A model generated the notes under the pieces. It was not told the origin of the DNA. It made no database searches and saw nothing but the letters and a program-made list of their open reading frames with translations. The translations under genes and the position numbers were made by a program. A stretch of 37,649 bases of DNA from Patescibacteria group bacterium UBA2023 (GTDB lineage: Bacteria > Patescibacteriota > Gracilibacteria > BD1-5 > UBA2023): assembly GCA_002335145.1 (NCBI GenBank), contig DDBV01000028.1:941-38589 (forward strand), written 5' to 3'. This document shows positions 662 through 36,860 of the stretch, piece by piece; positions within the stretch are counted from its first letter, which is position 1; each line of letters begins with the position of its first letter.

Positions 662-690
662 ATTATACGCAAAGCATGGATTTCACACAA
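662..690 (-). promoter_or_regulatory. Predicted promoter of the membrane protein/lipoprotein pair
   Basis: On the minus strand, TTGTGT (690-685), a 17-base spacer and a perfect TATAAT (667-662), 29 bases from the ATG at 632. It runs into the start of gatC, so the two divergent promoters overlap each other's coding starts. Confidence 0.6.
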
Positions 691-969
691 GAACAAATTC
701 GCCGTCTCGCCAAACTCTCCGGTCTTTCGTTTGACGAAGGAATGCAGTCGAGCTGGCAAGATTTTGCCAATATCCTCTGATTCTTCGACAAGCTCGATGA
801 GGTAGATGCCGCTCGTCTCGAAGGAGTGAAGCTCTCATCGCCACTCGTTGCGCCGCTGCGCGAGGACGTAGTGGATGTCGGGGCATACGACTCCGAGGAT
901 CTGCTCGCCAATTCTCCGAAGAAGATCATGAACCGACACATCGCGGTCGATAGTATCATGCACGGATAA
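676..969 (+). CDS. gatC: Asp/Glu-tRNA amidotransferase subunit C
   Basis: The 97-residue product has the usual length of GatC, the small subunit that stabilises the GatA/GatB amidotransferase, which converts Glu-tRNA(Gln) and Asp-tRNA(Asn) to the amidated forms. The start MDFTQEQIRRLAKLSGL is the family's helical N-terminus, followed by the FFDKLDEVD helix and the proline-containing VAPLREDV linker that wraps around GatA. Codon 35 is TGA (778-780) and lies in ANIL-G-FFDKLDEVD, which only makes sense as an amino acid; without read-through the protein would be 34 residues. The stop is TAA. gatA and gatB are not in the window; recF follows after 10 bases. Confidence 0.85.
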
Positions 970-979
970 TCCCTCTTTC

Positions 980-2068
980 ATGCTCCGATCCGTCCGGCTG
1001 CGGAACTTTCGTAATCACGCGGATTTTCGCGCGGATCTCGGTCGGCGTACTGTCCTTTCGGGTTCGAACGGATCCGGCAAAACCTCTGTTCTTGAGGCGG
1101 TTTACTGTCTGCTCAATGCGTCTTTTGCATTCGGACGTCCGATCGATGAGGTAGTATCGGTCGGTGCGGAGTCGAGCGCGATTACCGGAGTATTGTCCGC
1201 AGAAGGAGGCGCATATGGGGAGACCTATGTCGTTTCGCTCGATCCTGTTGCCCGCAAAGCCCGACTTTCTCGAGAGAAGGCTGCCGCTTCCCGCCCAGAC
1301 TACCTCGCGCGTTCGCCGCTACGAGCGGTTCTCTTTCATCCAGCGGAGATGAATATCCTTTCGCTCGCTCCATCTTTGCGGCGAGATTTTCTCGATGAGA
1401 TACTCTCCACCGCTCACCCAGAATTTTCGGTCGTCCGGCGCGAATACGCCCAGGCTCTCACCTCGCGAAACAAGATGCTCAAGGCCATACGCGAGCGTAA
1501 GACCTCTCCCGATGATCTCGACCTGTGGGACCGACTCTTCGCTGAGCGAGCCGGAGCATTTCTTGGATACCGGCTCCGTCTCATAGACGAACTCCGTGCG
1601 TTTGTTCCTGAGATTGAGCGGATTCTCGCGAACCGTTACCGATTGATCTTCTCGTACGAATCCCGTGCCGATCCAAGGGATCCAGAGGGGTCGATTCTCC
1701 GTCATTGCCGCACCAACCGTGATCGCGATATTCTCACCGGTCATGCTTCCGCAGGCCCGCACACCGACGATCTCGTTATCTCAGCGTGCGACTCTGTCGG
1801 CTACGAGCGACGAGCCTCAGAATATCTTTCTCGCGGAGAGACCAAAACTCTTCTACTCGGACTCAAGGCATTTCAGGTGTCGTATATCCGAAGCGGGATG
1901 AACAAAGAAATCGTCCTCCTGTTCGATGATTTGTTTAGCGAGTTGGACCGGGATCATGTGGATTTCGTGCTCTCGCTTTTTCCTCATGAGCAAGCCATCT
2001 TCACATCGCAATCGGAAAGGGGTGAAGCATTCGCTTCTGCGTCCGGCGCGAGTGTTGTTTCTTTATAA
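980..2068 (+). CDS. recF: DNA replication/repair ATPase RecF
   Basis: RecF is an SMC-like ABC ATPase that loads RecA at single-strand gaps with RecO and RecR. The 362-residue product has the family's length and order of motifs: LRNFRNH at the N-terminus, Walker A GSNGSGKT at residues 28-35, the signature SRGETKTLLLG near residue 285, and Walker B IVLLFDDLFSELD near residue 315. Most of the interior is the variable helical arm. There is no in-frame TGA. It starts 10 bases after gatC, so the two are probably one transcript. The leader before the ATG is pyrimidine-rich with no Shine-Dalgarno sequence. Confidence 0.92.
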   Translation: MLRSVRLRNFRNHADFRADLGRRTVLSGSNGSGKTSVLEAVYCLLNASFAFGRPIDEVVSVGAESSAITGVLSAEGGAYGETYVVSLDPVARKARLSREKAAASRPDYLARSPLRAVLFHPAEMNILSLAPSLRRDFLDEILSTAHPEFSVVRREYAQALTSRNKMLKAIRERKTSPDDLDLWDRLFAERAGAFLGYRLRLIDELRAFVPEIERILANRYRLIFSYESRADPRDPEGSILRHCRTNRDRDILTGHASAGPHTDDLVISACDSVGYERRASEYLSRGETKTLLLGLKAFQVSYIRSGMNKEIVLLFDDLFSELDRDHVDFVLSLFPHEQAIFTSQSERGEAFASASGASVVSL

Positions 2069-2102
2069 GGAACATTATCGGATATTGTCGAGGGAACTTC
2101 GT

Positions 2103-2131
2103 TTGTTTTCGGGTGTTTTTTCTGCTATTAT
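2103..2131 (+). promoter_or_regulatory. Predicted promoter of the Ig/FN3 surface protein
   Basis: TTGTTT (2103-2108), a 17-base spacer and TATTAT (2126-2131), with TGC directly before the -10, which fits an extended -10 element. It lies between recF and the ATG at 2169, with the -10 ending 38 bases upstream. Confidence 0.5.
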
Positions 2132-2168
2132 CGCGACCAGTACGACCTTTTCATCCCTTTCTCGTTCT

Positions 2169-3839
2169 ATGTATTCTCCACGATTCATTTTCTCGCTTCT
2201 CGTTGCGTCGGTCGCATCGATAGCGATGGCGTCGTCCGCGTACGCCGCAGCCACTTCGTTTGAGGTGGTCGTTCCGAAGGAGGCCAAGGTCGGCGAAGCC
2301 GTCGATGTCACTGTGCGTGCCCTCGATGATGAAGGCAAGGTCGATCCCGATTACGAAGGAAATATCTACTTCAACGTCACGGGGGACCCGAGCGCGACGG
2401 TGCCATTCTTCCAGGACGGGTATACTTTCTCCAAGTCTGATCAGGGAGAGAAGCTCTTTTCTAAGGGACTTGTCTTCACGAAGGAGGGGGCCATGACCGT
2501 CACGGTCGTGGACATTCTCGATGACGCGCTCGAAGGATCCGCGCCAGTCAAGGTAGGAGCTGAGGCATCCGAGGGGGTTGACCCAACGGAGGCTGAGACC
2601 ACCGATCTCACCGTGACAAGTCCGACCGATGGGACTGTCGCCGCTGCTGAGAAGATCGATGTGGTCGGTACTACCAAGAAAAATAGCAAGATCCTCTTTT
2701 TCATCAATGGAAAACAGGCAGGAGAGGCGCAGTCCGATGATTCTGGAGCATTTCTCGGGACGATGGAAGATCTCTCCGAAGGGAAGAATGTTCTCAAGAT
2801 CCGCGTCCTTAATGGAAAGGATCAGATCATTGCCGAGAGCCGGGATATTTCGTTCTCGGTAGAGAATGCGGGTCCGGCTATTCAGGGGGCTTCTATTATC
2901 GGAGGGAACCGTGTGCCAGCAGGACGGTCGTTCACGCTTGAGGTTCGTTCCGAATCGGGACTTACCGGAGGGAAGGCATCCTTCAGCGGAGCATCCGCAG
3001 ATCTTATAGAGACTGCCACCGGAGGGACGTACGCCGCTAAGTTCACCGCGCCGATCGAACTTGGGGACTACCCGATTTCGGTCGAGCTGAAGAATGCCCT
3101 CGGAGCTGTCACGAACGAAAAGAATATCGAGACCCTTTCTGTTACCGATGCTGTTTCTGCATTCAAGGAAGTAAAAACTACGTTCGAAGGAGATAAGACC
3201 ATTTTCACATTCTCTCTCGTAGCCGATGTAGAAAATCTCGCGAAGTTCCGCTTCCGCTACGGGGCTGGGACTGGAGAACTCACGGAATCGGTCCTTACGC
3301 TCGACCGTACCCAGATCAAGACCTCCACGGGCGACACGCTCGAATACGCGTGGTACATCAAGGGGCTCGAGCCTGATACCTACCGTTTTCAGATCATGGG
3401 AGTTGACACATCGGAGGCTGACATGGCGAGTGTTGTATCCGACGAGTTTACGGTCGAGGTTGTGGCGAATGCTGCGGGGCTCTGCCGTGTCGATAATGTT
3501 ACGGGACTCAAGGCAACTCGCCAAGATGACAAAGTGGTTCTCTCCTGGAATGCTGCCCCCTCGGCAACGAGCGGATACAATGTCTACAAGAAAGATGCGA
3601 AAGGAGAATACCAACTCATCGAGAATGTCACCGGGACTGGGTATAGTGTTCATTTCTCTTCCGACCGGGTCGAGTACACCGATTTCGCCGTAAAGGGTGT
3701 GTGTGATAAGGGGGCTGGCCTCTCCCCGGAGTATGCGAGTGTCCTCAAAGTACAGACCGGACCAGCGCTTACCGCCTTCCTCGCACTCATTGCTTTCATC
3801 TCGGGATACTTCATCCTTCGCCGTTTCCGCCTCGCCTAA
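2169..3839 (+). CDS. Secreted Ig-like/fibronectin III protein with C-terminal membrane anchor
   Basis: The 556-residue product begins with a clear Sec signal peptide (MYSPRFIFSLLVASVASIAM, cleavage probably after the AYA near residue 28). A chain of beta-rich, Thr/Gly/Asp-rich modules follows: an Ig-like module (about 30-140), a second starting with TVTSPTDGTV (about 150-240), two less clear ones, and a fibronectin type III-like domain (about 447-530; VTGLKATRQDDKVVLSWN). The C-terminus is one hydrophobic helix (TAFLALIAFISGYFILRR) with a basic tail, so it is probably held in the membrane facing out. This is adhesin-like architecture; the ligand is unknown. I chose the ATG at 2169 because it starts the signal peptide and follows the promoter at 2103-2131. 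The open frame extends upstream to 1926, but that part overlaps recF. Confidence 0.8.
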   Translation: MYSPRFIFSLLVASVASIAMASSAYAAATSFEVVVPKEAKVGEAVDVTVRALDDEGKVDPDYEGNIYFNVTGDPSATVPFFQDGYTFSKSDQGEKLFSKGLVFTKEGAMTVTVVDILDDALEGSAPVKVGAEASEGVDPTEAETTDLTVTSPTDGTVAAAEKIDVVGTTKKNSKILFFINGKQAGEAQSDDSGAFLGTMEDLSEGKNVLKIRVLNGKDQIIAESRDISFSVENAGPAIQGASIIGGNRVPAGRSFTLEVRSESGLTGGKASFSGASADLIETATGGTYAAKFTAPIELGDYPISVELKNALGAVTNEKNIETLSVTDAVSAFKEVKTTFEGDKTIFTFSLVADVENLAKFRFRYGAGTGELTESVLTLDRTQIKTSTGDTLEYAWYIKGLEPDTYRFQIMGVDTSEADMASVVSDEFTVEVVANAAGLCRVDNVTGLKATRQDDKVVLSWNAAPSATSGYNVYKKDAKGEYQLIENVTGTGYSVHFSSDRVEYTDFAVKGVCDKGAGLSPEYASVLKVQTGPALTAFLALIAFISGYFILRRFRLA

Positions 3840-3863
3840 GTCAGCACAGGAGGAACGCAAGAC

Positions 3864-6563: not shown

Positions 6564-7382
6564 ATGAAAATTCTCGCTTTCGGCGATATATTCGGACAAA
6601 AATGACGGACTCTCGTAGCGCGGTATGCTCCCGAGCTGCGCCGCCAGTACGCGCCGGATCTCATGATCGCCAATACGGAGAACCTGACTCAGGGAAAATG
6701 ACCTGTCCCTTCGCATCTCGAAGAACTCGAAGCTCTCGGATTTCAGGTGTTCACAGGAGGAAATCATACATTTGCTCATATGACAGAACTCCGTCCATAT
6801 ATCGATCGGTCGGACTCTCCGCAGATCCGCGCGCTCAATTATTTCGAGCATCCGAATTATCCCGTACCGGGACGCGGGTACCGAATTGTCCAGACGGGAA
6901 AAGGAAGAGCCTTGGTCATTAGTCTCCTGGGAGCGACGTTCATGGGGGATGATGTTGATAACGCGTTCATTGCCATAGATCGACTGCTCTCGCGACTCGA
7001 ATTGGAAGGGGAGAAATTCGAAGCGATCGTTGTAGACTACCATCGCGAGACGACGAGCGAGATTGCACTTATGACCGAGTATCTCCGTGGACGAGTATCG
7101 CTCATCTATGGCACACACACGCATGTGCAGACCAATGATGAACGAATCATCGGGGGTTATACCGGTACCATTACCGATATCGGTGCTACTGGATCCCTCG
7201 ATTCAGCGATTGGCGCGACATATGGTTCGTTTATGCCTTCGGCACTTACGGGCGTACGCTTCTTCGGCTCCAAGATGGAACCAGATCTCGGCCCCGGCGT
7301 GGTATGTGCGTTATACGCCGAGGTGGTCAACGGAGTCTGCGTAGCGATCGAGAAAATCCGCATCATCGAGCCGGTCGAATAA
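6564..7382 (+). CDS. ymdB: YmdB-type metallophosphoesterase (2',3'-cyclic nucleotide phosphodiesterase family)
   Basis: The 272-residue product matches the TIGR00282/YmdB family of calcineurin-like metallophosphoesterases. The metal-binding motifs appear in order: GDIFG (Asp8), ANTEN (about 38-42), GGNHTFAH, DYHRETTSE and GTHTHVQT. YmdB homologues hydrolyse cyclic nucleotides and influence RNA turnover; the role here is inferred from the family. Two in-frame TGA codons lie at residue 14 (6603-6605, in IFGQK-G-RT, where the family has a conserved glycine) and residue 46 (6699-6701, in NLTQGK-G-PVP). Without glycine read-through the start and the first metal ligand would be cut off. The 3' end overlaps tsaE, on the other strand, by 72 bases. 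Confidence 0.85.
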
Positions 7383-7790
7383 TCGATATTCGCGGAGGTC
7401 ATTGTCAACGAGCTCGATCTGGATCAGGAGATCTGGTACGATCTTGCCGGAGAGAATCTCTGGCCACTCGACCAAAACAATGGCGTCGGAATCATCGAAA
7501 TACTCTTCGAACCCCATGTGCGCGAAGCTCGCATAGTCCGGGAGGCGCGTAAGATCGAAATGTTTGATATTGCCGGGATATTCGCGATAGTATCCGTAGG
7601 TGGGACTCAATACTGGCTCATTTATTCCGAGTCGCTCTGTGAGCAGGTGGGACACGAGGGCGGTCTTCCCAGCTCAGTATGGTCCGGAGAGAAATATCTT
7701 CGTTCCGGGGCGGAGTTCCACGGGGAGTTCGTGGAGGCGGGAGAGTGGGAGGCGGGAGGATCGCATGGGCGGAATCGGATTTTTTGCCAT
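7311..7790 (-). CDS. tsaE: tRNA t6A threonylcarbamoyltransferase ATPase subunit
   Basis: TsaE is the P-loop ATPase that works with TsaB and TsaD in N6-threonylcarbamoyladenosine formation on tRNAs. The product (159 residues) has the Walker A motif GPYGAGKTALV, in which the fourth residue (codon 39, 7676-7674) is TGA and corresponds to the invariant glycine of the family's GDLGAGKT. The INEPVLSPTYGYYREY strand and the LVEWPE motif follow, as in TsaE. The start could be the ATG at 7790 or the one at 7766 (MRSSRLPL), which stands 23 bases from a TATTAT at 7794-7789. The C-terminus overlaps ymdB convergently. tsaD is also in this window (21427-22455). Confidence 0.86.
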
Positions 7791-15725: not shown

Positions 15726-16769
15726 TTACTCATGATCGCCTTCGTTCCCGTCACAGAAGACTCGCCGATGCGCCTCGCGGAGTTTCGGATTCGTGACATG
15801 CGTATAGACCTGGGTCGTCATGATGCTCGAGTGGCCGAGCATTTCCTGTATGGAGCGTATATCCGTACCGTGCGAGAGGAGTGTCGTTGCAAACGAATGT
15901 CGGAGCGTATGGGCGGATACTGGCTTATTGATGCCCGCAGCGACTGCTCGCTTCCGGATCATGTCGGTAATGAAGATCCTCGTGAGACGGACAGACTCGT
16001 TATCGAGATTCGCATTTTTCGCATCGTCACGGCGGTAATTATGCCGGATGAAGAGGGGAGAAAAACCGTCATCCCGCCGATCGAGGTATTGATCGATCCA
16101 TCGGCGAGCCTCGGCAGAGATGTAGACGGTCCGGATTTTCCGACCCTTTCCGCGGACACTCAATTCGTCCATGTTGTCTCTGAGGTCCCTGCGATCCAGG
16201 CGCACTAATTCAGAGATACGCAATCCGGTAGAGTAAATGCATTCGGTGATCGCACGATCTCGGACATCTTGTATCCGCTCCTCTCCGATATGCGCGAAAA
16301 ACCTGGGTAATTCTTCTTCGTCCAAGAATGTCACATGTCTCGGCGCGGGCTTGGCGAGATCGATTGTCGTAGGATCGAGAGTCTCGTATCAGGCCTTTTT
16401 CAGGTACTTGAGAAACGACCGAATCGAAATGATATGGGCGTTTACGGTCGTAATGCTCAGGTGTTGATCGTGGAGCGCGATTCGGAAATCCCGGATGTCC
16501 TCCCGAGAGAGATCCTCGATCATCGCTGGATGACGGAGGCTGAGGATGCGTTGGCGTTCGCGCAGCTCGCGCCGATCTATGCTCGTATCGAGGTAGAGTG
16601 TTTTCGAGGAGGCCCGATTGTCATCCACTTTTTCCTCGGCGAGCCCCGGCATCATGTGACAGGCGAGTCGAAACAGGTGAAACGCGTATTGTTCCGTGGT
16701 TTTGGGGCTCGCATCTCGTTCGAGACGGAGGTGGGTGAGGAATTCGTCGATGGCCGGAATCAGCTTCAT
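15726..16769 (-). CDS. Tyrosine recombinase, XerC/XerD type
   Basis: The 347-residue product has an N-terminal core-binding (SAM-like) domain (about 1-125; [33 protein letters not shown]) and a catalytic domain. The catalytic residues are visible: Arg in STGLRISEL (about 184), Lys in GKGRKIRTV, His and Arg in [15 protein letters not shown], His in MLGHSS and the nucleophile Tyr in TQVYTHV (about 322). Codon 127 is TGA (16391-16389) at the domain junction, LKKA-G-YETL. XerC/D-type enzymes resolve chromosome dimers at dif; with only one such gene in view, a single-Xer system is possible. I found no phage genes nearby, so it is probably chromosomal housekeeping. The stop is TAA. Confidence 0.86.
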
Positions 16770-16853: not shown

Positions 16854-17495
16854 TTATTTGTTTGCCCGAAGCCGCGCCAGAATATCGCGCACTTTCGCGA
16901 GGGCTCGGCGGGTCATGCTGACATCTCAGAGACTGTTGGGCATAGATGTCTTGCGTGCTTCTTCCCCGAGAGCATTCATGCACTCTTGCTCGATTTTCTC
17001 GTTTGGTTCTTCCGGTGGGTTTCTTGCGAATATCCCACCATCATGCGTATACGTCTTTTTCAGCATTCGATCGGTCTTCCCGATCATTTCCCTTGCTGCC
17101 TGCATATCGTACAGCAACCAGGCGAGTCGATCGCCCGCGATATCGAGACCGTTGATCAGTCATTGCACGACAACCACTCCCTCGGAGTTCGCTGGATCGA
17201 CCGGGTGTTGCTTGTTCCAAAAATAGATCCCCCCTCTGTTGTAGTCGAGAGTCATCGGCGTGCGCAGGAGGTAGTCGGCTGGGTCAAGGTTTCCTGTGAG
17301 TTTCTGTCCTTTCGCGAGGGATTCTACTACCCAGACAATCCGGATTTGGAGTGCCTCTACCATGGCGAGACGATTTTCCGAGGCCGCACAGGTGTACTCG
17401 GTCATTTGATCTGGAGAGATCATCGTCTCCGCTTTGAGGGGATTCGGACTTGCTATCGCGAGGGTCGCCCCGATCACTACTGCTGCCGTTCTCAT
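16854..17495 (-). CDS. Exported protein of unknown function
   Basis: The 213-residue product begins MRTAAVVIGATLAIASPNPL, a Sec signal peptide with probable cleavage after LKA (residue 22). The mature part is mostly helical, with segments such as GLDIAGDRLAWLLYDMQAAR and RALAKVRDILARLR; I do not recognise the family. Two in-frame TGA codons, at residue 112 (17162-17160) and residue 190 (16928-16926), are read as glycine (VVVQ-G-LING and NSL-G-DVSM). Without read-through this stretch would look like two fragments and an empty space. An alternative start at 17558 adds 21 residues. The stop is TAA. The recombinase gene follows 84 bases downstream on the same strand. Confidence 0.65.
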
Positions 17496-17573
17496 ACTCG
17501 AAATCGCGAAAAAATATCCGGAGTTCCAACTCCTGTCGTGGGAGGTACGCCTTCCCACCCATTACTATTTGTT

Positions 17574-21426: not shown

Positions 21427-22455
21427 ATGAAAATTCTTGCCTTCGAGACCTCCTGCGATGATACCTCTGTCGCATGTTTTGACGGTGAGAGTCTTCTCTC
21501 CCTGCGGACCGCCTCGCAGACAGCCGAACATGCCGAGACGGTTGGAGTGGTGCCCGAGGTTGCTGCACGCCTCCACGAAGCCAATGTCTTCGATACGCTC
21601 GACGAGACGATTCGTGAAGCGGGATTGACGCTTCGGGATTTTGATGCGATTGCTGTGACAGCCGAGCCAGGACTCATGCCATCGCTCCTCGTATGACTTG
21701 CGGTCGCAAAGACGCTCGCGCACGAGCTCGGCATTCCGATGCTCCGGATCAACCATATCCATGCGCATATTCTCGCCAACTACCTCGGTCGGGGATTTGA
21801 CGAGATTCGATATCCTCTCATCTGCCTCACGGTCTCGGGCGGACATAACGAACTCTATCGGCTCGATTCGCCATTCGAAAAAACGCTTCTCGGTCGCACT
21901 CGGGATGATGCGTCCGGCGAAGCGTTCGACAAGGTCGCGAAGATGCTCGGACTCGGCTATCCGGGTGGTCCAGTAATTTCTCGCCTCGCCGCTGAGTATA
22001 CGGGAGAATTTCGCGGGATATTCCCCGAGTCCCTCCGGGGGGAGGAGACGTTCGATTTTTCGTTTTCCGGACTCAAGAGCGCGGCACGCCGTGAAATAGA
22101 AGAGCGCGAGGCTGCGGATAGGCTCTCGGACGATGATGTGCGCGAGATCTGCTATGAGTTTGAGTCTCGTATTGTGGAAGAGCTCGTGTCGCGTACCATC
22201 CGAGCAGTCCGGATGCATGGGGTCGGGACGATCCTGCTCGCGGGATGAGTGAGCGCGAGCAATATGCTCGTTTCCCGTATGACGCAGGAGGCTGAGAAAA
22301 TCGGCGTTGTCTCGCTCGCTCCGACGAAGAAGATGTATTCTACCGATAATGCCGCGATGATCGGCATTGCAGCAGCTCTGGCATATCGTGAGTATCCCGA
22401 TGGTCCGCCAGCGGATTGGATCATTGGTTCCGGGTCGGATTTAGGCGGTCGTTAA
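21427..22455 (+). CDS. tsaD: tRNA t6A threonylcarbamoyltransferase catalytic subunit
   Basis: TsaD transfers the threonylcarbamoyl group to A37 of ANN-decoding tRNAs, with TsaB and TsaE. The 342-residue product has ETSCDDTSVA at the N-terminus, the metal-binding NHIHAHILANYL, LTVSGGHNELY, the FDKVAKMLGLGYPGGP motif and FSFSGLKSA. Two codons are TGA: residue 90 (21694-21696) in LLV-G-LAVAKTLA (family LLVGVAxAKALA) and residue 274 (22246-22248), the second glycine of LLAGGVSASNML (family AGGVAAN). Both are invariant glycines. It is the last gene of the operon beginning at 18015. Confidence 0.94.
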
Positions 22456-23794: not shown

Positions 23795-25120
23795 ATGACG
23801 GTAAAACCCGAACACCTCGGACGGTTCGATATATTCGGGGAGCAGCAGCGATTCTTTACGTTCTTCAAGAAGATCTTTCGTCACGAGTTTCGAAAAAACG
23901 GATTTACCCGTCTCACGACCTCGGTCTTCGATACGGAAGAGGAGTCTCGCATGGCATATCCGGATGGGCTCGTCATGGGTGGGTGTCCGGCCGATCGTCC
24001 GGAATACGGGTACGTCCTAAAATCCCACGGGTACCTCACAATGCTGCGTGCCTACTGTGCTCACATGCGCGCAGAGCCGCAGCCGGTCTACCATTACACA
24101 CTCGAGCCACAATTCCGCTACCTTGCGAATGGACGCGGTATCGATCAATACTGGGCACTCAACGCCTACGCTATTGGTGAGGCTGATCCGATTCTCGATG
24201 CCACGCTCCTCTCAGTCTACTCGGTTATTCTCGATGATGTCGGGCTTGCGGGACGATACCGCATCTCGCTCAACTCCCGGTGAAACACCAAGGAACAAGA
24301 ACGGTATATTCAGGAGCTTGTCGCGTTTTTCGACAACAAGCGACACCTCATGACCGATTCCGAACGGGTGCGATTCCAGGAGAATCCGCTCGATATATTC
24401 TCGTTTGAGAGTCCCGATATCCGCGAGCTCTTGATGGTTGCTCCAAAGATCGCCGATTTTCTCAAGAAGGATTCCAAGGAATATCTCGCGAATATGCGAG
24501 AATACCTCGGCATCCTCGGAGTCGAGACGGTCGCGGATGATGCATACTATGCGGATATGCCGTTTTTCACAGGTCCTGTCTGGAAGATCGAGCTACGGAC
24601 TGATGAGGAGGATGGATCGACTTCGTGGAGAATGGTCGGATCAGGCGGTCGCTTCGATGATCTCGCCCGACGAGTCGGCCAGAGCAAGGCTGTGCCGGCG
24701 GTGTGAGGGGAGCTCGACTCCGACGCGGTCTTGCACGAACTTATGAAAATCGGAACTCGACTCCGCAACAAGGACAAAATCCAGCTCTACCTCATCCAGC
24801 TTGGAGACGAAGCGAAGAAGCTTGCGGTCGGTCTCAATCGCGAGGCACAGAAGCGGGGAGTGAATTCGCTTCTCTCGCTCGGAGTTCCATCGCTCAAAAT
24901 GCAAATGAAGAAGGCGACCGATCTCAATACGCGATTCGTTGCCGTGATTGGCATCATGGAAGCCAAGAACAAAGTTTGCCAGCTCAAAGATCTTGTTCAC
25001 GGCACGCAGGAAGAAGTCCCCCTTGCTGAGCTTATCGACACGATCGTTGAGCGTCTCGGGACAGAGAATCTCGATTTTTTCCACCCGATCAAAGATCTTA
25101 TTATCGAGAACCAGCTTTAG
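23795..25120 (+). CDS. hisS: Histidyl-tRNA synthetase-like protein with degenerate active site
   Basis: The 441-residue product has the HisRS layout: a class II catalytic domain, then a C-terminal anticodon-binding domain (about 318-420; LGDEAKKLAVGLNREAQKRG, KNKVCQLKDLVHGTQEEVPL). GSGGRFDDLARRVG and PAVGGEL match the HisRS GGRYDxL and PAxGF regions. Key catalytic motifs have changed, however. The LRPEGT loop reads LKSHGYL, motif 2 reads FRYL where class II enzymes have FRxE, and the HisRS RGLDYY motif appears as ADMPFF, losing its catalytic arginine. It may be a very divergent HisRS or a paralogue without aminoacylation activity. Codons 163 (24281-24283) and 304 (24704-24706) are TGA; the latter gives PAVGGEL. 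Its TAG stop overlaps the next gene's stop. Confidence 0.72.
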
Positions 25121-26340
25121 GCTGTTTCGGTTTTGTTTTCGTTTAGATGTCCGTAGAGTGTGTCGATCTCGAGAATAAACGTCTCGAGATTTCTTTTGTC
25201 CGTATAGAAGTTCATGCCTACGGCGAGCATTGTCATGCCGAGAATCGTGGCAGCGAGGATGGGGGTATCGAGATACCATCCAAAAATCGCGTTCGCGGCT
25301 CCGACATAGCACCCGATAATGAATGCATACAGGAGAATGTATCCAATCGTGAAGATTCCCATGCTCGTGACCGATGGAATAATGCCCCGTCGCAGATGCC
25401 AATTGGAAAACGAAAAAACATAGCGCGTAGTCGTCTGCCAGACAACATACGAGTAGAGACCGAAAATGAGACGGAGAACCGACTTTATTCCATCTAAGAA
25501 AAGACTCACAGCCTTCGAAATCGCCGAGTCAACGAAGAGATCCTTGAAGTTTCCGCGTATCGCCTGGACCGAGAAGAGTACAACCGCGAGCATGAGGATT
25601 TTCTCAAGGGAAAAACTCGAGATCCCCTGTTGGATCAGATCGGAACTGTATTCCCCGACGATGAACGTATACATGAGCGAGCTCGGATCGACAAGGGATG
25701 ATGTTGCCGAGGCATCTCCCGCGATTCGGACGTTCGCGAAATCTGCCTGTCCGAGCATTCCAGCAAATCACCCGAAGACCCCTCCCATAATAATGAGTCA
25801 GATGCGTCGGTATGAGGCGATAGCGACAAGCATCGTACCGAACCGTTCGTGCAAATATTCGCCAAGCGATACGAACCGCCTGGTCGGAAGTGCGCCGTAG
25901 ATGAGCCGCATCTCGTCCGAAGGACGGCAGCGATATGCGACGATCGACCAGTAGAGGTATACCGCCTGCGAGAGCGGGTCTCGCCGCGCTTCCACAGGAC
26001 GCGAAACGTAGTATCCGAGCAGGAAAAAGAGGAGAGAGTTGTTGCGTTTTTTCGGGAGATGGTAGAGCTTGAAAACGTACTCGTTCGTGCGGAGGTACTC
26101 GTCTTCGAGTAGCTCGCTCTCTGGCGCATGTTCGCGCATATACGCTATGAACGTGAGGTATTTTTCCCGATCGATGGGAAACACTGAATCCCGACGTCCA
26201 GAGAGGAATCGTTGTGTCCGGTCTGTGAATGTCGCGAGTGTCGAAGCATCACGGCGGACGATCGCATTTATGAGTCTGAAGCAGTGATTCGATCGAATCG
26301 TGGAATGGAGAAAGCGATGGATCGCAGAAAAGACGAACAT
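25117..26340 (-). CDS. Multi-pass membrane protein with N-terminal soluble domain, unknown function
   Basis: The 407-residue product begins with about 170 mostly polar residues (SVFPIDREKYLTFIAYMREH, then GEYLHERFGTMLVAIASYRR) and continues with about five hydrophobic helices, including GLIIMGGVFGGFAGML, KILMLAVVLFSVQ, GIFTIGYILLYAFIIGCYV and ILAATILGMTMLAVGMNFY. The C-terminus is polar. I recognise no family. Two TGA codons, at residues 181 (25800-25798) and 191 (25770-25768), fall in the first membrane helix and are read as glycine (YRRI-G-LIIMGGVFG-G-FAG), a natural composition for a helix. Without read-through the protein would split into a soluble and a membrane half. Its stop TAA overlaps the stop of the HisRS-like gene (TTAG, 4 bases). 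Confidence 0.7.
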
Positions 26341-28114: not shown

Positions 28115-28903
28115 ATGATTATCGATACCCATGCACATTGTTCGTTTGATTCGCTCGCCGAGCACGAAGACGAGATGCTTGCACGTATGGTGGCCGCCGG
28201 CGTGGAGATGGCCATACAGATCGCTGTGGATGCGGCGAGCGCACGGACTGTGGTGGATATGTCCCGTTACCGTCCGAATGTCTATCGTGCCGTTGTCGGC
28301 ATCCATCCGAATGACTGTCAGTCCATTCGAGATATTGATACCGCCATGGCGGAGATCCGGTCTATCGTTGAATGCTCTGGCGATGTCGTGGTAGGCATTG
28401 GTGAAACAGGTCTCGACCGCCACTATCCCGAGACCGGTCCTGGTGAATTCGCAAGGCAGCGGATATTTTTTGGTCGACACGTGTCGCTCGCGCGGGAATT
28501 TTGATTGCCAGTGGTGGTGCATAGTCGTGATGCGTGGAGTGAGACAATCGAGTGTTTACGGGAGTTTCGTCCCGAGAGACTCGTGATGCACTGCTACCTC
28601 GGAGATCTCGCAACGACCCAGACGATCCTCGGACTTTGTCCGAATGCCTGGTTTGCCTTCGGATGAGCAACGACCTACCGCCGAAACGAAGCAGTGCGCG
28701 GTGCCGCAGCCGGTTTGCCGCTTGATCGGATCCTCGTAGAGACCGACGCGCCGTTCCTCTCTCCTGAGCCCTTTCGCGGAACAATAAACGAGCCGGCGAA
28801 CGCGCGCACGGTACTGGAATTCATAAAAACGCTCCGGAGTGAGCCTGGTGCAGAGGTGGAAGAAATCATATACCGCAGCACGAAAGAACTCTTTGGTCTC
28901 TAG
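28115..28903 (+). CDS. tatD: TatD-family metal-dependent hydrolase (DNase)
   Basis: TatD proteins are TIM-barrel metallohydrolases with 3'-5' exonuclease activity in DNA and peroxide-damage repair. The 262-residue product shows IDTHAH (metal ligands, residues 3-8), IGETGLDRHY, PVVVHSRDA, VMHCYLGDL, FAFGGATTY and the signature ILVETDAPFLSPEPFRG. Codons 130 (28502-28504, EF-G-LPVVVH) and 184 (28664-28666, the second glycine of FAFGGA; family form SxxGxxT) are TGA. The TAG stop (28901-28903) overlaps the TAG stop of the RelA/SpoT gene on the other strand in the palindrome CTAG. Confidence 0.92.
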
Positions 28904-31191: not shown

Positions 31192-33639
31192 TTAACTCCG
31201 AAGGGAGATTGTTTCGGACGATACAGACATAATAACGGCGTTCTGTATATCGAGTGCCTCGGTATCGGTAATGGTCTTTTCCCGATCTCGCACCAGGATT
31301 CCGAATGTTACGGACTTCTTTCCGGCTCCGATCCGGGATTCGTCCTCGTAGATGTCGGTCACGAGAGCCTCACGCACGAGCGGGTGAGCTTCCATGATCG
31401 TGCGTGCCACATCTCCCGTATTTGTACGCGTGTCCATGACGAAGTTGATCTCGCGCTCGATCCCTGGGAATCGATCGAGTGGTTCGTACCGGCGTTCGGC
31501 ATTTTCTGTGAGACGCACGAATGTGGCGATATCCGCCTCAAAGTACCACGTATCCGCTGGTGCATCGAATCGCTTTGCGAGTGCCGGATGCAGTCATCCG
31601 AATTCCATGATCGTCTCGCCCTCCGTTGTCTCGTAGCGTCCGGATTTGTTCGGGTGGACGAAGCGCGCGATGTTCGGGGCTTCGGCAGCGATTCTTGTCT
31701 CTGTGTTGGGCAGGAGGTTTGCCATGAGCTTATCGAGCACTGTGCGGATTTCTCGCAAATCCATTCATACGGCGATCCCAGCAAGTTTCTTCGTTTCATG
31801 GAAACTTGCCCCATCCTTGATATAGATTTTTCCGATTTCGAAAGCCGAGAATTTCGGGTGTGCCCGAACGTTGTTTCGTACGGCTTCCACGAGTCCTCCG
31901 ATCATGTCACGTCGCATGAGGGAGGCTTCTTCCGAGTATGCGTTGATGACGTGAATCGCCCCTACTCCCGCATCGTCATATCCAAGGGCCGCTTCTCTGT
32001 CCGGATGACTGAATGATCGTGTCATAACCTCGTACGATCATGTATCGGAGAGGAATCGACGGAGACGCTTCACGATCTCGAGCGATGGATTGATCTGAAC
32101 TGGAGTGAAGTCTCCCGAAAGAGGAACGGGTTCGATCCGCTCATACCCGTGAATACGCGCAATTTCCTCCACGATATCCTCGGGAATATCCACGTCCTTC
32201 GTGGCTCGCCATGAAGGGACGCCGATTTGATAGGCTCCGTTTGATTCATTCACATCGAATCCGAGTCGGCCGAGAATATCTTCGATCTCACCGGGGGCGA
32301 ATACTGTGCCAGTCTTGCGCTCCAGAAAGTCCCGGGTACAAGAAATCTTCACCGTCCGGATTTTCGTATCGTTGGTATAGGAAAAGCATCCGATGGGAGA
32401 AGCATCGTATCCGTAGTATCGGAGGTAGTCCACGATGCGTGGGAGGGCCTTTTTCGCAAGCAGGGGATCGGGCGATTTTTCGTAGCGCATGAGCGCGTCG
32501 GTCCTCAGGCCAATACGGGTCGAAGTGCGCCGCACTACGACCGGATCGAAACACCCTGACTCGTAGATGACACGGACGGTATCGGCCGACACGGCTGTCC
32601 GTGATCCGCCCATGATCCCAGCAATAGCGATAGGCCCTTCCGCATCGGCGATGACAATGTCATTCTCGCAGAGCGAGTAGGTTTTTCCGTCGATTGCGTC
32701 GATTGATTCTCCCGTCCGAGCCATGCGCACGCAAATATCTCCTACGAGCTTATCCCGGTCGAAGGCATGGAGTGGTTGTCCGAGTTCGGTCATGATCGCG
32801 TTGGTCACGTCGACATGCGTGAACTTCGTTACGAGTCCCGATTGGCGGAGCATGAGCGTTACGCCGTTGAAGGCACTCGGACGGCTCGGTGCCGAATCGA
32901 ATGCGAGCAGGTGGTAGGCGAAAACGTGTTCGGTCTCCACCGAGGCCTTCAGTGGCTCTGTCGATGGCAGGGGAGCGGGGGAGTACTGTTGGAGCGGGAG
33001 ACGGAAGATTGCCGCAAATTCGCGCGCGTTGCCCGCAACGGAGAAGAGGTCGGGGCGATTCGTGATAAATTTATTATCAATCTCAAACACCGTATCCGAT
33101 AAGGGAATCGTGTCTTCGCTGTTCGCTCCGAGCGAGGGTAGGGTGAGCTGTAACGATGCTACGGGCATGCCGACCATGGATTCGAGTATGGATTTCTCCC
33201 AGATCGTCTCAAGCGGAAAAATTCCCTCGGCACGCTCATCGGCAAGACCGAGTTCGTCCGTAGAGCAGATCATCCCGCGACTCTCCACACCACGGATCGT
33301 GGTTTCGGAAATGGCGAATCCTCCAGGAAGAACAGCCCCCGGGAGAGCAACCGGGACATAGGCGGCATCGCGCACATTCGCTGCACCGCAGACGATTTGC
33401 CGGTCTGTTCATTCTCCGGCATCCACAATCACGATATTGAGCTTCTCAGAGTCCGGATGCTTCGTGAAAGACTTTACCCGGGCGACAACCACTCGGTCAG
33501 GAATCGATGGAGCGATGATCTCATCGATCTCGGCAGTATGGATGGAATAGAGGTGGGCAAGCTCTGTGTCAGATACGCCATCACTGCGGACAGATCCGAT
33601 CGGTGCGAAACGTTCGATCCAGGAGAGAGGGATTTTCAT
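31192..33639 (-). CDS. pheT: Phenylalanyl-tRNA synthetase beta subunit
   Basis: PheT forms the alpha2-beta2 enzyme with PheS. The 815-residue product begins MKIPLSWIERFAP and has the tRNA-binding (EMAP-like) domain, then B3/B4 editing (NRPDLFSVAGNAREFAAI), the B5 domain (VAGIMGGSRTAVS region onwards) and the C-terminal anticodon-binding FDX-ACB domain (RFPGIEREINFVMD). Four codons are TGA: residue 77 (33411; DAGE-G-TDRQIVCGAANV), residue 534 (32040; SDT-G-SYEVMTRSF, family GYxEVxTYSF), residue 625 (31767) and residue 682 (31596; EFG-G-LHPALAKRF, family GxLHP). With the standard code it would appear as four or five fragments. pheS is not adjacent; upstream is a divergent gene. The (p)ppGpp gene is downstream in the same operon. 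Confidence 0.93.
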
Positions 33640-33676: not shown

Positions 33677-33704
33677 AGTATAGCCGTTCGGAATGAAAAA
33701 TCCA
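33677..33704 (-). promoter_or_regulatory. Predicted promoter of pheT-spoT
   Basis: On the minus strand, TGGATT (33704-33699), a 16-base spacer and TATACT (33682-33677), 38 bases from the pheT ATG. The -35 is weak. Confidence 0.45.
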
Positions 33705-33715
33705 GCCCCGAGAAA

Positions 33716-33743
33716 TGGTTTTTTCCACAAAATAGACTATACT
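33716..33743 (+). promoter_or_regulatory. Predicted promoter of the pilin-like gene
   Basis: TGGTTT (33716-33721), a 16-base spacer and TATACT (33738-33743), ending 34 bases before the ATG at 33777. It is divergent from the pheT promoter, and both have the same -10 box. Confidence 0.45.
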
Positions 33744-33776
33744 TTCATCGAAGTATTATCCGATTTCTGCACGAAA

Positions 33777-34169
33777 ATGCGATCCATGTCCGCCTGATTT
33801 GTCCGTTTCATCTCGGTGATCGTCTGCGTGCTTCTGTGTATAGGGATGGGAGTGGTGGAGGTGTCTGCCGATGCTGGAATATTTGAGGGGTCCGGAGTGG
33901 GAGAAGATGACATCCGAAAGGGGAATATCACGTTCGATGACATCCCCAATATGATTATGGCGGTCACGAACTGGGTTCTTGGAATCGCCGCCACCATTGC
34001 CGTTTTTGCCATAATTTTCGGTGCACTCAAGCTCACGCTCGGATCTGGTGCACTCGGAGGGTCGGACGGAAAGACCGAAGCAAAGAACGCTCTTCAATAC
34101 GGTATTACTGGTTTTGTGGTCGCTGTCTCAGCGTGGCTGATCGTACAATTTGTTCTCTCCAACCTCTAA
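33777..34169 (+). CDS. Two-helix pilin-like (VirB2/TrbC-type) membrane protein
   Basis: The 130-residue product has a signal peptide (RFISVIVCVLLCIGMGVV, cleavage probably after SADA near residue 33), a short acidic linker (GEDDIRKGNITFDDIPNMI), and two hydrophobic helices, WVLGIAATIAVFAIIFGAL and YGITGFVVAVSAWLIVQFVL, joined by a polar loop with a glycine-rich LGSGALGGSDGK. This is the layout of conjugative-type pilins and of the T4SS_pilin family often seen in CPR genomes. No VirB/Tra genes are near, so the apparatus is unknown. Codon 7 is TGA (33795-33797) within the signal peptide. The start at 33777 fits the promoter spacing and gives a basic start (MRSMSAGFVR); 33786 is an alternative. 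Confidence 0.72.
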
Positions 34170-34181
34170 TTCTTGCGTCTC

Positions 34182-34637
34182 ATGTACGAATGGCAATTCG
34201 CTACGAAGCGGCCCAAATCACCCCTGTGGTATATGATCGCCGGAGCTCTCGCTGTCGCACTCGTGGTCTGGTGATTTTTTATTGGGCTCTATACCATGAG
34301 TATCGTGGTTGTTCTGTTTGTCGGAGTGTACCTCCTCTACGAAAATAACTTCGCCGATACTTCCCGGGTCGCTTTTTCTGCTACTGACATGCAGGTGGGG
34401 GGTGAACACTACGAGTATGCTCGCGTCTTGCGCTTCGGGGTGGTCTCCATCTCAGGTCATCCTGTCTTTCTACGATTCTTCGTGAAATGAACGCTCGGAA
34501 GCACTCTCGACATTCCGGTTCCCGATCAGGGGCCGATGCTTGATGAGATCCGAGAATACCTCTCCGCGAAGATTCCTCTTGACGAGACGATCGGATTTTC
34601 CGGGACAGAGAAGCTTCTCTTTCGGCTCGGAGTGTAG
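34182..34637 (+). CDS. Membrane protein of unknown function downstream of the pilin-like gene
   Basis: The 151-residue product begins with a basic segment (MYEWQFATKRPKSP) and two close hydrophobic helices (LWYMIAGALAVALVVWGFFI and MSIVVVLFVGVYLLY), then a soluble C-terminal domain of about 95 residues. Codon 31 (34272-34274), inside the first helix, and codon 103 (34488-34490, VK-G-TLGSTLD) are TGA; termination at the first would leave a useless peptide. I recognise the general look of small CPR membrane proteins but no named function. It starts 12 bases after the pilin-like gene, so the two are probably co-expressed. Confidence 0.65.
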
Positions 34638-34675
34638 ATTTCCTCGTGCTTCCCCCCGATCCACATGTGCGATTC

Positions 34676-34698
34676 AGGCTCTTCTTGGATAAGAGCCT
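34676..34698. terminator. Hairpin between convergent genes
   Basis: An 8-bp stem AGGCTCTT / AAGAGCCT with a 7-base loop (CTTGGAT), lying between the stops at 34637 and 34715-34713. The following sequence is only modestly T-rich (TTCCCGTGTCTTTCTTT), so it would be a weak terminator. Confidence 0.4.
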
Positions 34699-34712
34699 TC
34701 CCGTGTCTTTCT

Positions 34713-35651
34713 TTATTCTCCGAGAGCTTCTTGGAGTTCTGCTGGTGGTTCGGAGCAGAATTCATAGCGATTCCCCTGGTATTCAAATATGAGTCGGTGG
34801 GCATGGAGCCACTGGCGCGCGAGTCCGGAATTTTTCTCGAATCGCTCGTTTATGTCGGTATTTCCATAGACGCGGTCTCCAATGATCGGATGTCCGATGG
34901 AAGCCATATGGACTCGGATTTGATGGGTTCGTCCAGTGAGGAGATCCACTTCCACAAGTGTTGTGCCATCCGGCCCGGGCCGCACTGTGCGGAAGCGAGT
35001 CTTGGCAATGCGTCCGCCAATCGGATCCCGGACGGTCATGCGTATCGGGTCTCTCGGATCCCGACCGATAAGTGACTCGATGAAGCCGCCTTGCTCTTCA
35101 AATGAGCCAGAAACAAGGGCGAGGTACGTCTTTTTGATTAAACGATCGTGCATGAGCCTCTGGAGATCCGTGAGGCTCTCGGGCGTGAGAGCGACAATGA
35201 TGAGTCCACTCGTGTCGCGGTCGAGCCGGTGGACGATCCCAGGGCGTGCCGTATTAGTCTGGCTGATGGATGGATACCGGTGGAGAAGTCCGTTCACGAG
35301 CGTTCCGCGGTTCCCGCCCTCCTGTGGCGTAGGGTGTACCGTCAGCCCAGCGGGCTTATTGATGATGGCGAAGTCAGCACATTCATATACGATGTCGAGA
35401 TCCATTTCATCGGGCATGAGTCCCGAACCATCCTCTGTGGATACTTCCAGGGAGAGTGTGTCACCGTTTTTTGCGAGCATCTTCTTGTCCACGCACGCTC
35501 CATTGAGTCGTATGTCTCCGCGTTCGATCATCCGGACTATGCGGGAGCGCGAGTACGTAGGAAAAAGAGCCGCCGCCAGGCGGTCGACTCTTTCGGGTTG
35601 ATCGAGATGCTCGATGCGGAGAGGATTATCCTTCGAGGACGATGCGTCCAT
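34713..35651 (-). CDS. RluD-type 23S rRNA pseudouridine synthase
   Basis: The 312-residue product has an N-terminal S4 RNA-binding domain (about 20-75; RVDRLAAALF, GDIRLNGACVDKKMLAKNGD) and an RluA/RluD catalytic domain. The motif HRLDRDTSGLIIVAL contains the catalytic aspartate (Asp144), and LLTGRTHQIRVHMASIGHPIIGDRVYG is the conserved second motif. The Arg of HRLD is encoded by CGG, which confirms that CGG is still arginine. RluD-type enzymes modify 23S rRNA helix 69; other RluA-family targets are possible. The ATG at 35651 overlaps the end of ndk by 26 bases, implying translational coupling. No TGA codons. Confidence 0.86.
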   Translation of the reverse strand: MDASSSKDNPLRIEHLDQPERVDRLAAALFPTYSRSRIVRMIERGDIRLNGACVDKKMLAKNGDTLSLEVSTEDGSGLMPDEMDLDIVYECADFAIINKPAGLTVHPTPQEGGNRGTLVNGLLHRYPSISQTNTARPGIVHRLDRDTSGLIIVALTPESLTDLQRLMHDRLIKKTYLALVSGSFEEQGGFIESLIGRDPRDPIRMTVRDPIGGRIAKTRFRTVRPGPDGTTLVEVDLLTGRTHQIRVHMASIGHPIIGDRVYGNTDINERFEKNSGLARQWLHAHRLIFEYQGNRYEFCSEPPAELQEALGE

Positions 35652-36075
35652 AGTCGCTGAGTTCGTTTGCCGCGAAAAACCGCTTGATCTCGACTTCGGC
35701 CGTCTCAATGCTGTCCGAAGCGTGGATGATGTTGTAGCGGATCGTGGTGGCGTAGTCTCCACGGATCGTACCGGGGAGAGCATCTGCGGAGTTCGTTGGT
35801 CCGCACATGGTACGCAGGAGAGAGACTACCCCCTCAGCCTCAGCAACGAGTGCAACGATGGGCCCAGCAGTCATATAGGCAACGATCTCCGGGAAGAAGG
35901 GCTTACTTGCGAGGTGAGAATAGTGATCGGCGATGAGGTCGTTTCCGAGGGTGATCATCTTGAGACCCACAATCTTGATACCGCGTCGCTCCATGCGAGC
36001 GAGAATGTCTCCAATGAGACCGCGGTGAATAGCGTCCGGCTTGAGAAGAACGAGAGATCGCTCCATAGTGGTCAT
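35626..36075 (-). CDS. ndk: Nucleoside diphosphate kinase
   Basis: The 149-residue enzyme moves the gamma-phosphate from ATP to other NDPs through a phosphohistidine. It has the family start (SLVLLKPDAIHRGLIGDIL), the RRGIKIVGLKM strand, and the active-site histidine His118 in YNIIHASDS (family form NxxHGSDS; here Ala replaces Gly). The gene overlaps the downstream pseudouridine synthase by 26 bases. MTTMERSL or the internal MERSL could be the start. Confidence 0.92.
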   Translation of the reverse strand: MTTMERSLVLLKPDAIHRGLIGDILARMERRGIKIVGLKMITLGNDLIADHYSHLASKPFFPEIVAYMTAGPIVALVAEAEGVVSLLRTMCGPTNSADALPGTIRGDYATTIRYNIIHASDSIETAEVEIKRFFAANELSDYGRIVLEG

Positions 36076-36097
36076 GTGAAAAAATTATACCGCCGCG

Positions 36098-36125
36098 AGT
36101 ATATGCGGAAACGGCTTAAAGGCAA
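36098..36125 (-). promoter_or_regulatory. Predicted promoter of ndk-rluD
   Basis: On the minus strand, TTGCCT (36125-36120), a 16-base spacer and TATACT (36103-36098), 23 bases from the ATG at 36075. A perfect TATAAT also lies closer (36089-36084); if that box is used, the mRNA would be nearly leaderless. Confidence 0.5.
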
Positions 36126-36149
36126 GGAAATATCGTTTCTTGTGCGAAT

Positions 36150-36860
36150 TTATGCCGCTCGTTCCATCTCTGTCCGCCCCATGACACGCCGGAGAAAGTT
36201 CTTTACCCGGGTTCGGACTCCTTCATGTCCGGTTGTCTGTCCGTGCGTCATCTCGGGTACAGTCATGAACTCGGTCGGATTTCATTCGATCCGACTGAGG
36301 TTGGCAGGATTCTCCACTTCATCTTTCGAACCGATGATCGCGAGAGTCGGGACGTTCGTTGGTACCGGTCGCCATTCGTCGAGATCGGCGAGGTTTTGTC
36401 GGTGGATGGGAATGAATCTATTGCCCGCTTCGACCGGCACCAGAATAGCGTTTTCTCGGTGGAGGCCTGCGGGGAGCCCGGAGATAATGGGATACGGATC
36501 GATGAGTGGTGCGAGAAGTGTGAGCGAAGCCAGGCCCGGCAATTGCCCCTTCGACAATGCGTGCAGCACGGCGAATGCTCCGAAGCTATTCGCGAGCAAG
36601 TGTATTTGCGTTATGCTCTCGGACTGTAGGAGATGGTCCATCTCGGTCATGAGTCGCCCGCGATACACCGAGAGTGCTCCTGGCTCGGCGAGCCGCACAT
36701 CTCCCTTGCGCTCGAAGCTCCAGGCATTCACACTCTGGTCTCGGATAAACTTTGCGAACGAAGAGGTCGGATCGCTATCTGATCCGAGTCCGGTCAGAGT
36801 TATGATCGCATGAGGGTCGGCGGGTATTGGAGAATGGGAAAACCGGGCAATGTTGCGCAT
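36150..36860 (-). CDS. Alpha/beta hydrolase
   Basis: The 236-residue product has the alpha/beta-hydrolase core. The oxyanion strand is HAIITLTGLGSD, the nucleophile elbow is LLANSFGAFAV (Ser92; the first glycine of GxSxG is Ala), the acid is Asp180 in LAIIGSKDEV, and the catalytic His206 is in VPEMTHGQ. There is no signal peptide, so it is probably a cytoplasmic esterase or acylglycerol lipase-like enzyme; the substrate is unknown. Codon 193 is TGA (36284-36282; SRIE-G-NPTEF). Termination there would remove the catalytic histidine, so read-through is needed for a working triad. The stop is TAA. Confidence 0.82.

Follow-up and report, generated by a model that had tools for sequence, protein, structure and literature searches.

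The 37,649-nucleotide stretch of DNA analyzed here (the window; positions 941 to 38,589 of contig DDBV01000028.1, forward strand, GenBank assembly GCA_002335145.1) belongs to Patescibacteria group bacterium UBA2023, and its genes contain in-frame UGA codons that are read, with a probability that we put at about 97%, as glycine according to National Center for Biotechnology Information (NCBI) genetic code 25, the genome being a member of the Gracilibacteria (BD1-5) clade with a high guanine-plus-cytosine (GC) content. Code 25, known in Gracilibacteria and Absconditabacteria, had been predicted from the sequence of the window, and the UGA sites, the tRNA, the search for release factor 2 (RF2) and the placement of the genome all agree with this original prediction. 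Homologues have glycine at most of the UGA sites compared, the genome carries a tRNA gene with the anticodon UCA, no RF2 was found in it, and it groups with the known clade; we infer in addition that glycine is the amino acid loaded onto this tRNA and that UGA is kept rare by GC pressure.

UGA codons of the window

The gene list of the window comprised 43 genes (11,773 codons under code 25) and was drawn up with Pfam domains as a guide and TGA left open, replacing an automatic calling that chose several antisense frames; the starts of bS20, a PilO-like gene and gene 10188, all three without TGA, are arbitrary. We counted 34 in-frame TGA codons spread over 18 of these genes, which is the predicted number of genes and one codon more than the predicted 33, while the nine positions that had been named individually are exact to the base. 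All 43 genes end in TAA (30) or TAG (13), as had also been stated. Since TGA was left open in the gene calling, this tally by itself is no proof that UGA is sense; that UGA is not a stop in the window follows from the Pfam domains and homologues that extend across the TGAs. When read with code 11, MetG, TsaD, HtrA, Rel, PheT, TatD, and YmdB fall into fragments. UGA accounts for 34 of the 851 glycine codons (4.0%) and GGN codons for the other 96%, glycine including UGA makes up 7.2% of the residues, and the GC content is 53.4%.

The residue encoded by UGA was examined by masking TGA as X in nine proteins of the window and aligning them to solved structures (20 sites, three to four matches shown each), several of the matches being near-copies of a single protein (all three matches of TsaD and three of the four of HtrA, besides pairs among those of TatD and TsaE). 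The predicted correspondence with glycine was borne out for the most part: 13 of the 20 sites hold glycine in every solved homologue shown, three are mixed, three hold other residues and one lies in a linker. Glycine was uniform at TsaD 21694 and 22246 (3/3, near-copies of one protein), HtrA 23260 and 23587 (4/4, three of the four being one protein), Rel 29877 and 29832 (3/3), PheT 32040 (3/3), MetG 13962 (3/3, and 113 of 117 database homologues), TatD 28664 (4/4), IF-3 4615 (all three shown matches covering the site), YmdB 6603 and 6699 (4/4 at each), and TsaE 7676 (4/4, two near-copy pairs). The mixed sites are HtrA 23644 (N/N/N/G), PheT 31767 (G/G/A), and PheT 33411 (E/D/G), and those without glycine are Rel 30780 (Ser in 3/3), TatD 28502 (Asn/Asn/Lys/Lys), and PheT 31596 (Val/Val/Arg); the linker site, HtrA 22810, was aligned in one of four matches and is not glycine there. 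Thus, eight of the nine TGAs that had been placed at invariant or typical glycines have glycine in every match shown, and the ninth, PheT 31596 (FGGLHP), does not. A codon-by-codon inference, in which PheT and MetG were compared with 113 and 117 database homologues, respectively, gave glycine as the best meaning of TGA (5.7 vs -1.3 for Trp, n = 5 columns). All codons with at least six columns scored best at their standard meaning, including CGG and CGA as Arg, while meanings other than the standard one scored best for AGA (n = 3) and TTG (n = 2), which are too rare to judge.

The 18 genes with in-frame TGA, with TGA positions and the basis of each call, are as follows (on the minus strand, positions of single bases are given in the sense of the gene).

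676..969, plus strand: GatC-like gene; TGA 778; Pfam PF02686
4246..4755, plus strand: IF-3; TGA 4615 (RGRE glycine); Pfam IF3_N/IF3_C
6564..7382, plus strand: YmdB-like phosphoesterase; TGA 6603, 6699; PF13277
7311..7790, minus strand: TsaE; TGA 7674-7676 (P-loop glycine); PF02367
9107..10195, plus strand: PilC-like T2SSF protein; TGA 9209, 9917; PF00482
13107..14636, plus strand: MetG; TGA 13962; PF09334 (scanned from 12921)
15726..16769, minus strand: XerC/D-like recombinase; TGA 16389-16391; PF00589
16854..17477, minus strand: unnamed gene; TGA 17162, 16928; coding score, with no Pfam match for 16854-17558
21427..22455, plus strand: TsaD; TGA 21694, 22246; PF00814
22504..23727, plus strand: HtrA; TGA 22810, 23260 (GNSGG), 23587, 23644; PF13365 and PDZ
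23795..25120, plus strand: HisS-like protein; TGA 24281, 24704; PF03129 anticodon-binding domain only
25117..26340, minus strand: unnamed, probably a membrane protein; TGA 25800, 25770; coding score, with no Pfam match
28115..28903, plus strand: TatD DNase; TGA 28502, 28664; PF01026
28900..31179, minus strand: Rel/SpoT; TGA 30780, 29877, 29832; HD_4, RelA_SpoT, TGS
31192..33639, minus strand: PheT; TGA 33411, 32040, 31767, 31596; B3_4, B5, tRNA_bind, FDX-ACB
33693..34169, plus strand: T4SS-pilin-like gene; TGA 33795; PF18895
34233..34637, plus strand: unnamed gene; TGA 34272, 34488; coding score, with no Pfam match for the longer frame 34173-34637
36150..36860, minus strand: unnamed gene; TGA 36284; coding score, with no Pfam match

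At the end of the window lies a further gene (37090-37632, minus strand) with the stretch HPFYDGNGR, which we take to be a Fic-like motif. Its composition is unlike that of the other genes (GC by codon position 0.45/0.31/0.44), and it was perhaps acquired recently.

Decoding apparatus, distribution in the class and rival readings

The genome of the window (G000; 1.10 Mb, 38 contigs, 88.9% complete) gave 41 tRNA matches, among them a tRNA(UCA) located outside the window (C16:18760-18838), which is 79 nucleotides long, has an encoded CCA and shares its acceptor features (G1:C72, C2:G71, G3:C70, U73) with the tRNA-Gly(UCC) of the same genome. It thus carries glycine identity elements by the rule used in PMC8629427. 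An ordinary tRNA-Trp(CCA) is present as well, while tRNA-Gly(GCC) was not seen among the tRNAs of this 88.9% complete genome, which may reflect an assembly gap; relatives carry tRNA-Gly(GCC) beside the UCA tRNA (L161, L163, L168). Only one release-factor match was obtained (PF00472), which falls below the RF2 (TIGR00020) cut-off and contains PET at the place of the PxT that we take to be the RF1 motif. Both signs that the original prediction had named for the rest of the genome, a tRNA-Gly with a UCA anticodon and no RF2-grade match (prfB), were therefore found, although in a genome that is 88.9% complete the missing RF2 is weak evidence when taken alone. In the tRNA-Gly(UCA) of the window's order (L177:1466-1544) the D-loop, AAAAGAGCGA, is without the GG pair that is its usual form, and the contact between D-loop and T-loop may be unusual.

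A search for RF2 across 353 genomes of the class found it above the cut-off in 201. Families f1, f2, and f3, which constitute the window's order, and the separate family f5 lack an RF2-grade match by E-value in 125 of their 126 genomes (49 of 49 in f5), and 12 of the 126 are without any release-factor match, RF1 included. The exception and the only RF2 case in the window's own order, G108 (f3; L043), has RF2 over the cut-off and consists of 2.7 Mb in about 500 contigs, and is possibly contaminated; G108 aside, no regain of RF2 was seen in genomes of these four families. A tRNA model built from 13 UCA tRNAs detected the 79-nucleotide tRNA(UCA) at 98.5-104.3 bits in all 10 tested genomes of the order, six of which were outside the model, and the next-best tRNA scored 60 bits. 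In three f5 genomes (G002, G003, G007) the UCA tRNA has 74 nucleotides and no encoded CCA. Two of these tRNAs were compared with the f1-f3 type and are 57-65% identical to it, which is no closer than either kind stands to ordinary tRNA-Gly(UCC) (58-70% for the f1-f3 types and 61-69% for the f5 types); identity to the UCA tRNA of a further genome, G144 (see below), is 70-74%. As far as such comparisons go, the f1-f3 and f5 types give no sign of a close common origin, and 75 letters cannot prove separate origins. Both rpoB and 18 ribosomal proteins put the window's genome with f1-f3, and we infer that f5 corresponds to Absconditabacteria. Among the matches listed, f1, f2, f3, and f5 are the only families whose Rel contains in-frame TGA, bar one TGA in G224; as this one precedes the start codon in the code-11 frame, it was dropped as a case of sense UGA.

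To see how densely UGA is used, Rel was compared across 30 genomes, the window's own included; the frames run from stop to stop, and those of L055, L057, and L058 include sequence before the gene. UGA makes up between 0 (G064, where the gene is partial) and 88% (G066) of the glycine codons of Rel at a locus GC of 0.26-0.54. In the window's genome it makes up 7% in Rel, at 0.54, and across the genes of the window 4.0%, so the description of the window as a dense example of code 25 fails. The share falls with GC (Spearman -0.79, n = 30; -0.69 within f1, n = 25; both uncorrected for kinship), and UGA-rich members are present in f1, f3, and f5. In the genomes whose Rel is most similar in identity to that of the window (genera g7, g13, and g6), the share of UGA in this gene is at most 14% at a GC of 0.36-0.54.

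Several of these results weigh against the reading of the window given above. At seven of the 20 sites compared, the solved homologues do not all have glycine, several of the structure matches are near-copies of a single protein, and the codon inference for TGA has only five columns, two of which (PheT codons 77 and 682) speak against glycine or fail to favor it in database homologues. The missing RF2 could be a gap in an 88.9% complete genome. GC accounts for UGA use only in part, as at about 0.36 GC within f1 the share is 3% in G072 and 44% in G058.

A tryptophan meaning (code 4), which gene callers assumed for many metagenome relatives, would account for the Trp found in database proteins: in the PheT and MetG comparison W ranks second at the GGA, GGC, GGG, and GGT columns, and three database relatives of the leucyl-tRNA synthetase (LeuRS) of another genome, G137 (see below), have W at 44, 34, and 39 of 44 UGA sites. 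However, these W stand at glycine columns and so look like code-4 mistranslations in databases, no masked site of the window falls on Trp in the structure matches shown, and the genome has an ordinary tRNA-Trp(CCA) next to a UCA tRNA with U73 and a glycine-type acceptor stem; we therefore give this meaning practically no chance. In practical terms, public databases contain some proteins from these lineages in which a glycine encoded by UGA is given as W. The public entry of the window's MetG, P0126, has 347 amino acids, as if cut at TGA 13962. That UGA is a stop or selenocysteine, the in-frame TGAs marking pseudogenes, sequencing errors or selenocysteine sites, finds some support in ARAGORN, which labels the UCA tRNA tRNA-SeC. 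Yet this label derives from the anticodon, and the tRNA has 79 nucleotides, a short variable loop and no long variable arm; moreover, TGA occurs at many positions in 18 of 43 genes, which include many core genes, in the four families 124 of the 125 other genomes share the loss of RF2 as judged by E-value, and the in-frame TGA of Rel is restricted to these families among the matches listed, apart from the upstream codon of G224. This, too, we hold to be extremely improbable.

The sparse UGA could, finally, mark an early stage of reassignment and not a late emptying under GC pressure. The low UGA use of the genera closest by Rel identity over a wide range of GC speaks for this and indicates that part of the sparse pattern is inherited, but RF2 is already lost, one tRNA is common to the order, UGA-rich members occur in f1, f3, and f5, and the UGA share declines with GC, which makes an early stage rather unlikely. 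We thus prefer glycine under an established code 25, in which the dedicated UCA tRNA with its glycine-type acceptor stem would read UGA as glycine, RF2, which ends translation at UGA, would be gone, and RF1 would terminate at UAA and UAG; in a GC-rich genome UGA would then have been nearly emptied with no reversion of the reassignment.

Two relatives, G137 and G144

Judged by its genes, G137 (f9; a draft of 700 kb, 94% complete; loci L192-L195, L260, L374, L378-L437) reads UGA as glycine, almost exclusively so. Naive open reading frames (ORFs) in 79 kb contain 1,221 in-frame TGA vs 229 GGN codons. In its partial rpoB glycine is the majority residue at 58 of 77 UGA columns (14 standard-code rows) and at 48 of the 52 that are conserved to at least 90%, and its LeuRS, deposited in NCBI as Candidatus Gracilibacteria bacterium, has Gly at all 44 UGA sites; the three further relatives with W mentioned above are public entries P0242, P0243, and P0244. 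The genome search returned no release-factor match of any kind for G137, and no RF1, RF2 or UCA tRNA was found in 636 kb of the about 700 kb, where 26 tRNAs were seen. Met and Glu tRNAs were likewise not found there, which points to an incomplete draft or to tRNAs that escape detection easily.

The reassignment in G137 is likely to be of separate origin, outside the known code-25 clade, if the trees are taken at face value. G137 groups with the f1-f3 and f5 genomes in neither the rpoB nor the ribosomal-protein tree. In a tree of 18 ribosomal proteins (2,534 columns, 35 genomes) G137 joins G136 of f8 (99% SH-aLRT), whose best match to the RF2 model is 2.6e-118, and the ribosomal proteins reject a single UGA-Gly clade (p-AU 6e-5). 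The rpoB tree, from a later version of which G051 was left out owing to a broken frame, requires two changes to UGA-Gly, with one change sufficing in 2% of 200 bootstrap trees; against a separate origin, rpoB alone does not reject one clade (p-AU 0.106). The genome of G137 is AT-rich, which should draw its position in the tree towards the AT-rich code-25 genomes and not away from them. The weak points of the case are the odd letter make-up, the failure to find RF1 and a UCA tRNA in the 636 kb, and the fact that it concerns a single draft genome.

The second relative, G144 (f11), is a likely intermediate in the code change, again seen in a single draft genome. A pattern search for tRNA(UCA) with U73 and CCA found it in 18 of the 353 genomes; apart from G144, whose tRNA carries glycine identity elements, these belong to f1 (16 genomes) and f2 (one). 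At the same time, G144 has an RF2 over the cut-off (464 bits) with SPF and GGQ, presumably the RF2 motifs. The loci with the tRNA and UGA genes are L178:1467-1543 (the tRNA), L183:10877-12127, and L186:14311-15456. In a sample of 119 kb, 101 genes were called, 13 of which contain 36 UGA codons. These are clustered, as 27.9 genes would be expected at random over the glycine codons and none of 5,000 shuffles was as clustered: the type IV pilus genes PilB and PilT and the cyclic nucleotide (cNMP)-binding gene adjoining PilT have five each and a 598-residue protein has 10, while no UGA occurs in rpoB, Rel or RF2 of G144 and the sampled ribosomal-protein genes avoid it. Some of the 36 are doubtful, since in three genes UGA stands two, six or nine codons before TAA or TAG and may be the true stop, and in at least two genes (L184:17374 and L179:1771) it probably precedes the real start; one further ORF (L185:2596-3519) ends in TGA. 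With three candidates in 101 genes and this one doubtful ORF, UGA would serve as a stop no more than rarely in the sample. A strict screen for internal TGA with coding-like flanks, which is noisy, gave 21 TGA in five ORFs of G144. It also gave 25 in 15 in G200, five in three in G128, three each in G143, G138, G001, and G151, none in 12 others, and 45 in 25 in the window with antisense frames included; the matches outside G144 were judged antisense by eye.

In PilT of G144, the Walker A UGA corresponds to Gly in all three solved homologues, and the other four sites to N/N/G, S/S/A, A in the first two matches, and D/D/D. Nevertheless, all five columns are Gly, without any UGA, in G338 and G339 (f34; 58% identity), and over 14 standard-code rows no residue is more frequent than Gly at any of the five, with Gly in only 5-7 of 14 rows at three of them. 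The PilT tree groups G144, G338, and G339 at 97. The glycines of the nearest relatives and this grouping indicate that PilT does not look imported from an organism with code 25 and that its UGA codons arose in the line of G144. Two other PilT matches of G144 contain four and one TGA. A T2SSE domain match spans the UGA sites of PilB, which we assume to be glycine columns. Since RF2 and PilB lie 3 kb apart on contig C59, and Rel, rpoB, and PilT lie together on C43, a mixing of contigs from two organisms does not explain the UGA genes. The tRNA(UCA) lies on the small contig C1 (7.3 kb), which makes its binning less sure; the ORFs of this contig look cellular by eye, one resembling glutamine synthetase. 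Measured against code 25, G144 has sense UGA and the tRNA and is not without RF2, and it would therefore work like code 25 in some genes without being a full member.

We consider it fairly probable that the change from UGA to glycine arose more than once in the class, with G144 caught midway and G137, from the same part of the ribosomal tree, gone the full way. The order of steps could be that tRNA-Gly(UCA) is gained while RF2 remains, UGA then enters some genes, RF2 is lost and UGA takes over; the window would stand at the far end of the known clade, with UGA nearly emptied at high GC and unreverted. TGA stops of ribosomal-protein genes were tallied with a query set that held non-gene frames, and amounted to 3/10 in f7, 1/13 in f6, 0/7 in f8, 1/21 in f34, 0/36 in f10, 0/20 in f4, and 8/19 in f15. 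The three TGA among 29 for G144 come from non-gene frames, as far as the 101 gene calls show. As the neighbor families differ in this respect, a prior rarity of the UGA stop is not shown for all of them. G200 (f15; L188-L191), a single contig that is 98% complete, was sampled because its best TIGR00020 match reaches only 3.6e-85. TGA terminates 22 of its 47 naive ORFs and thus seems to be a common stop in this genome, whose RF2 may be split or divergent.

Comparison with known systems

The background to this code reportedly includes work by Campbell in 2013, Rinke in 2013, and Ivanova in 2014, as cited by other papers. Hanke et al. 2014 (PMC4032931) found 97 peptides unique to UGA-Gly vs three unique to UGA-Trp, prfB was in none of the BD1-5 genomes then available (PMC6851277), and further background is given in PMC8080830, PMC11452946, PMC13092985, and PMC6146748. 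The genome of the window resembles the code 25 Gracilibacteria in reading UGA as Gly, in having tRNA-Gly(UCA), in the absence of prfB and in keeping prfA, and differs from them in its GC of 53.4% and in a UGA share of only 4.0% of glycine codons. For Gracilibacteria and Absconditabacteria, Shulgina and Eddy give a GC range of 0.21-0.53 (PMC8629427), at whose edge and not outside which the window lies, so that its high GC is not new. Its code is known as well, and what it adds is a sparse user of UGA without reversion.

Absconditabacteria (SR1) share UGA as Gly with the window, and f5 is like it in being without an RF2-grade match. They differ in that CGA and CGG encode Trp there (CGG also in some Gracilibacteria; PMC8629427) and Arg in the window, while the UCA tRNA of the three f5 genomes has 74 nucleotides and no encoded CCA as opposed to 79 and CCA in the window's order. 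Code 4 of Mycoplasma and some insect symbionts is likewise a reassigned stop with RF2 lost in some cases (PMC8629427, PMC6851277), but the amino acid and the tRNA are different.

The greater novelty lies in the relatives G137 and G144. In the literature consulted, with subscription papers mostly and supplements wholly outside its scope, neither a separate origin of UGA-Gly nor an RF2-keeping genome with sense UGA as Gly was recognized. Two genomes labeled Gracilibacteria in NCBI have RF2, lack tRNA-Gly(UCA) and were read as UGA-stop (PMC8629427), and a 2026 review (PMC13293708) restricts UGA-to-Gly to Gracilibacteria/JAEDAM01 with one origin in their last common ancestor. If G137 stands outside Gracilibacteria/JAEDAM01, as the ribosomal tree suggests, it argues against this single origin. 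The intermediate stage in the reassignment of a stop codon has long been discussed, with codon capture, an ambiguous intermediate and a loss-driven change as models (PMC8629427); if G144 is what it seems, with RF2 alongside a UGA-reading tRNA-Gly and with only some genes recoded, it would make these models testable in an extant bacterium. A UGA-reading tRNA-Gly is also found in phage RSA-ATP1, as tRNA-Gly-sup(TCA) (PMC13059738), yet this is a phage of a recoded host, whereas the tRNA of G144 lies on a cellular-looking contig in a genome that keeps RF2.

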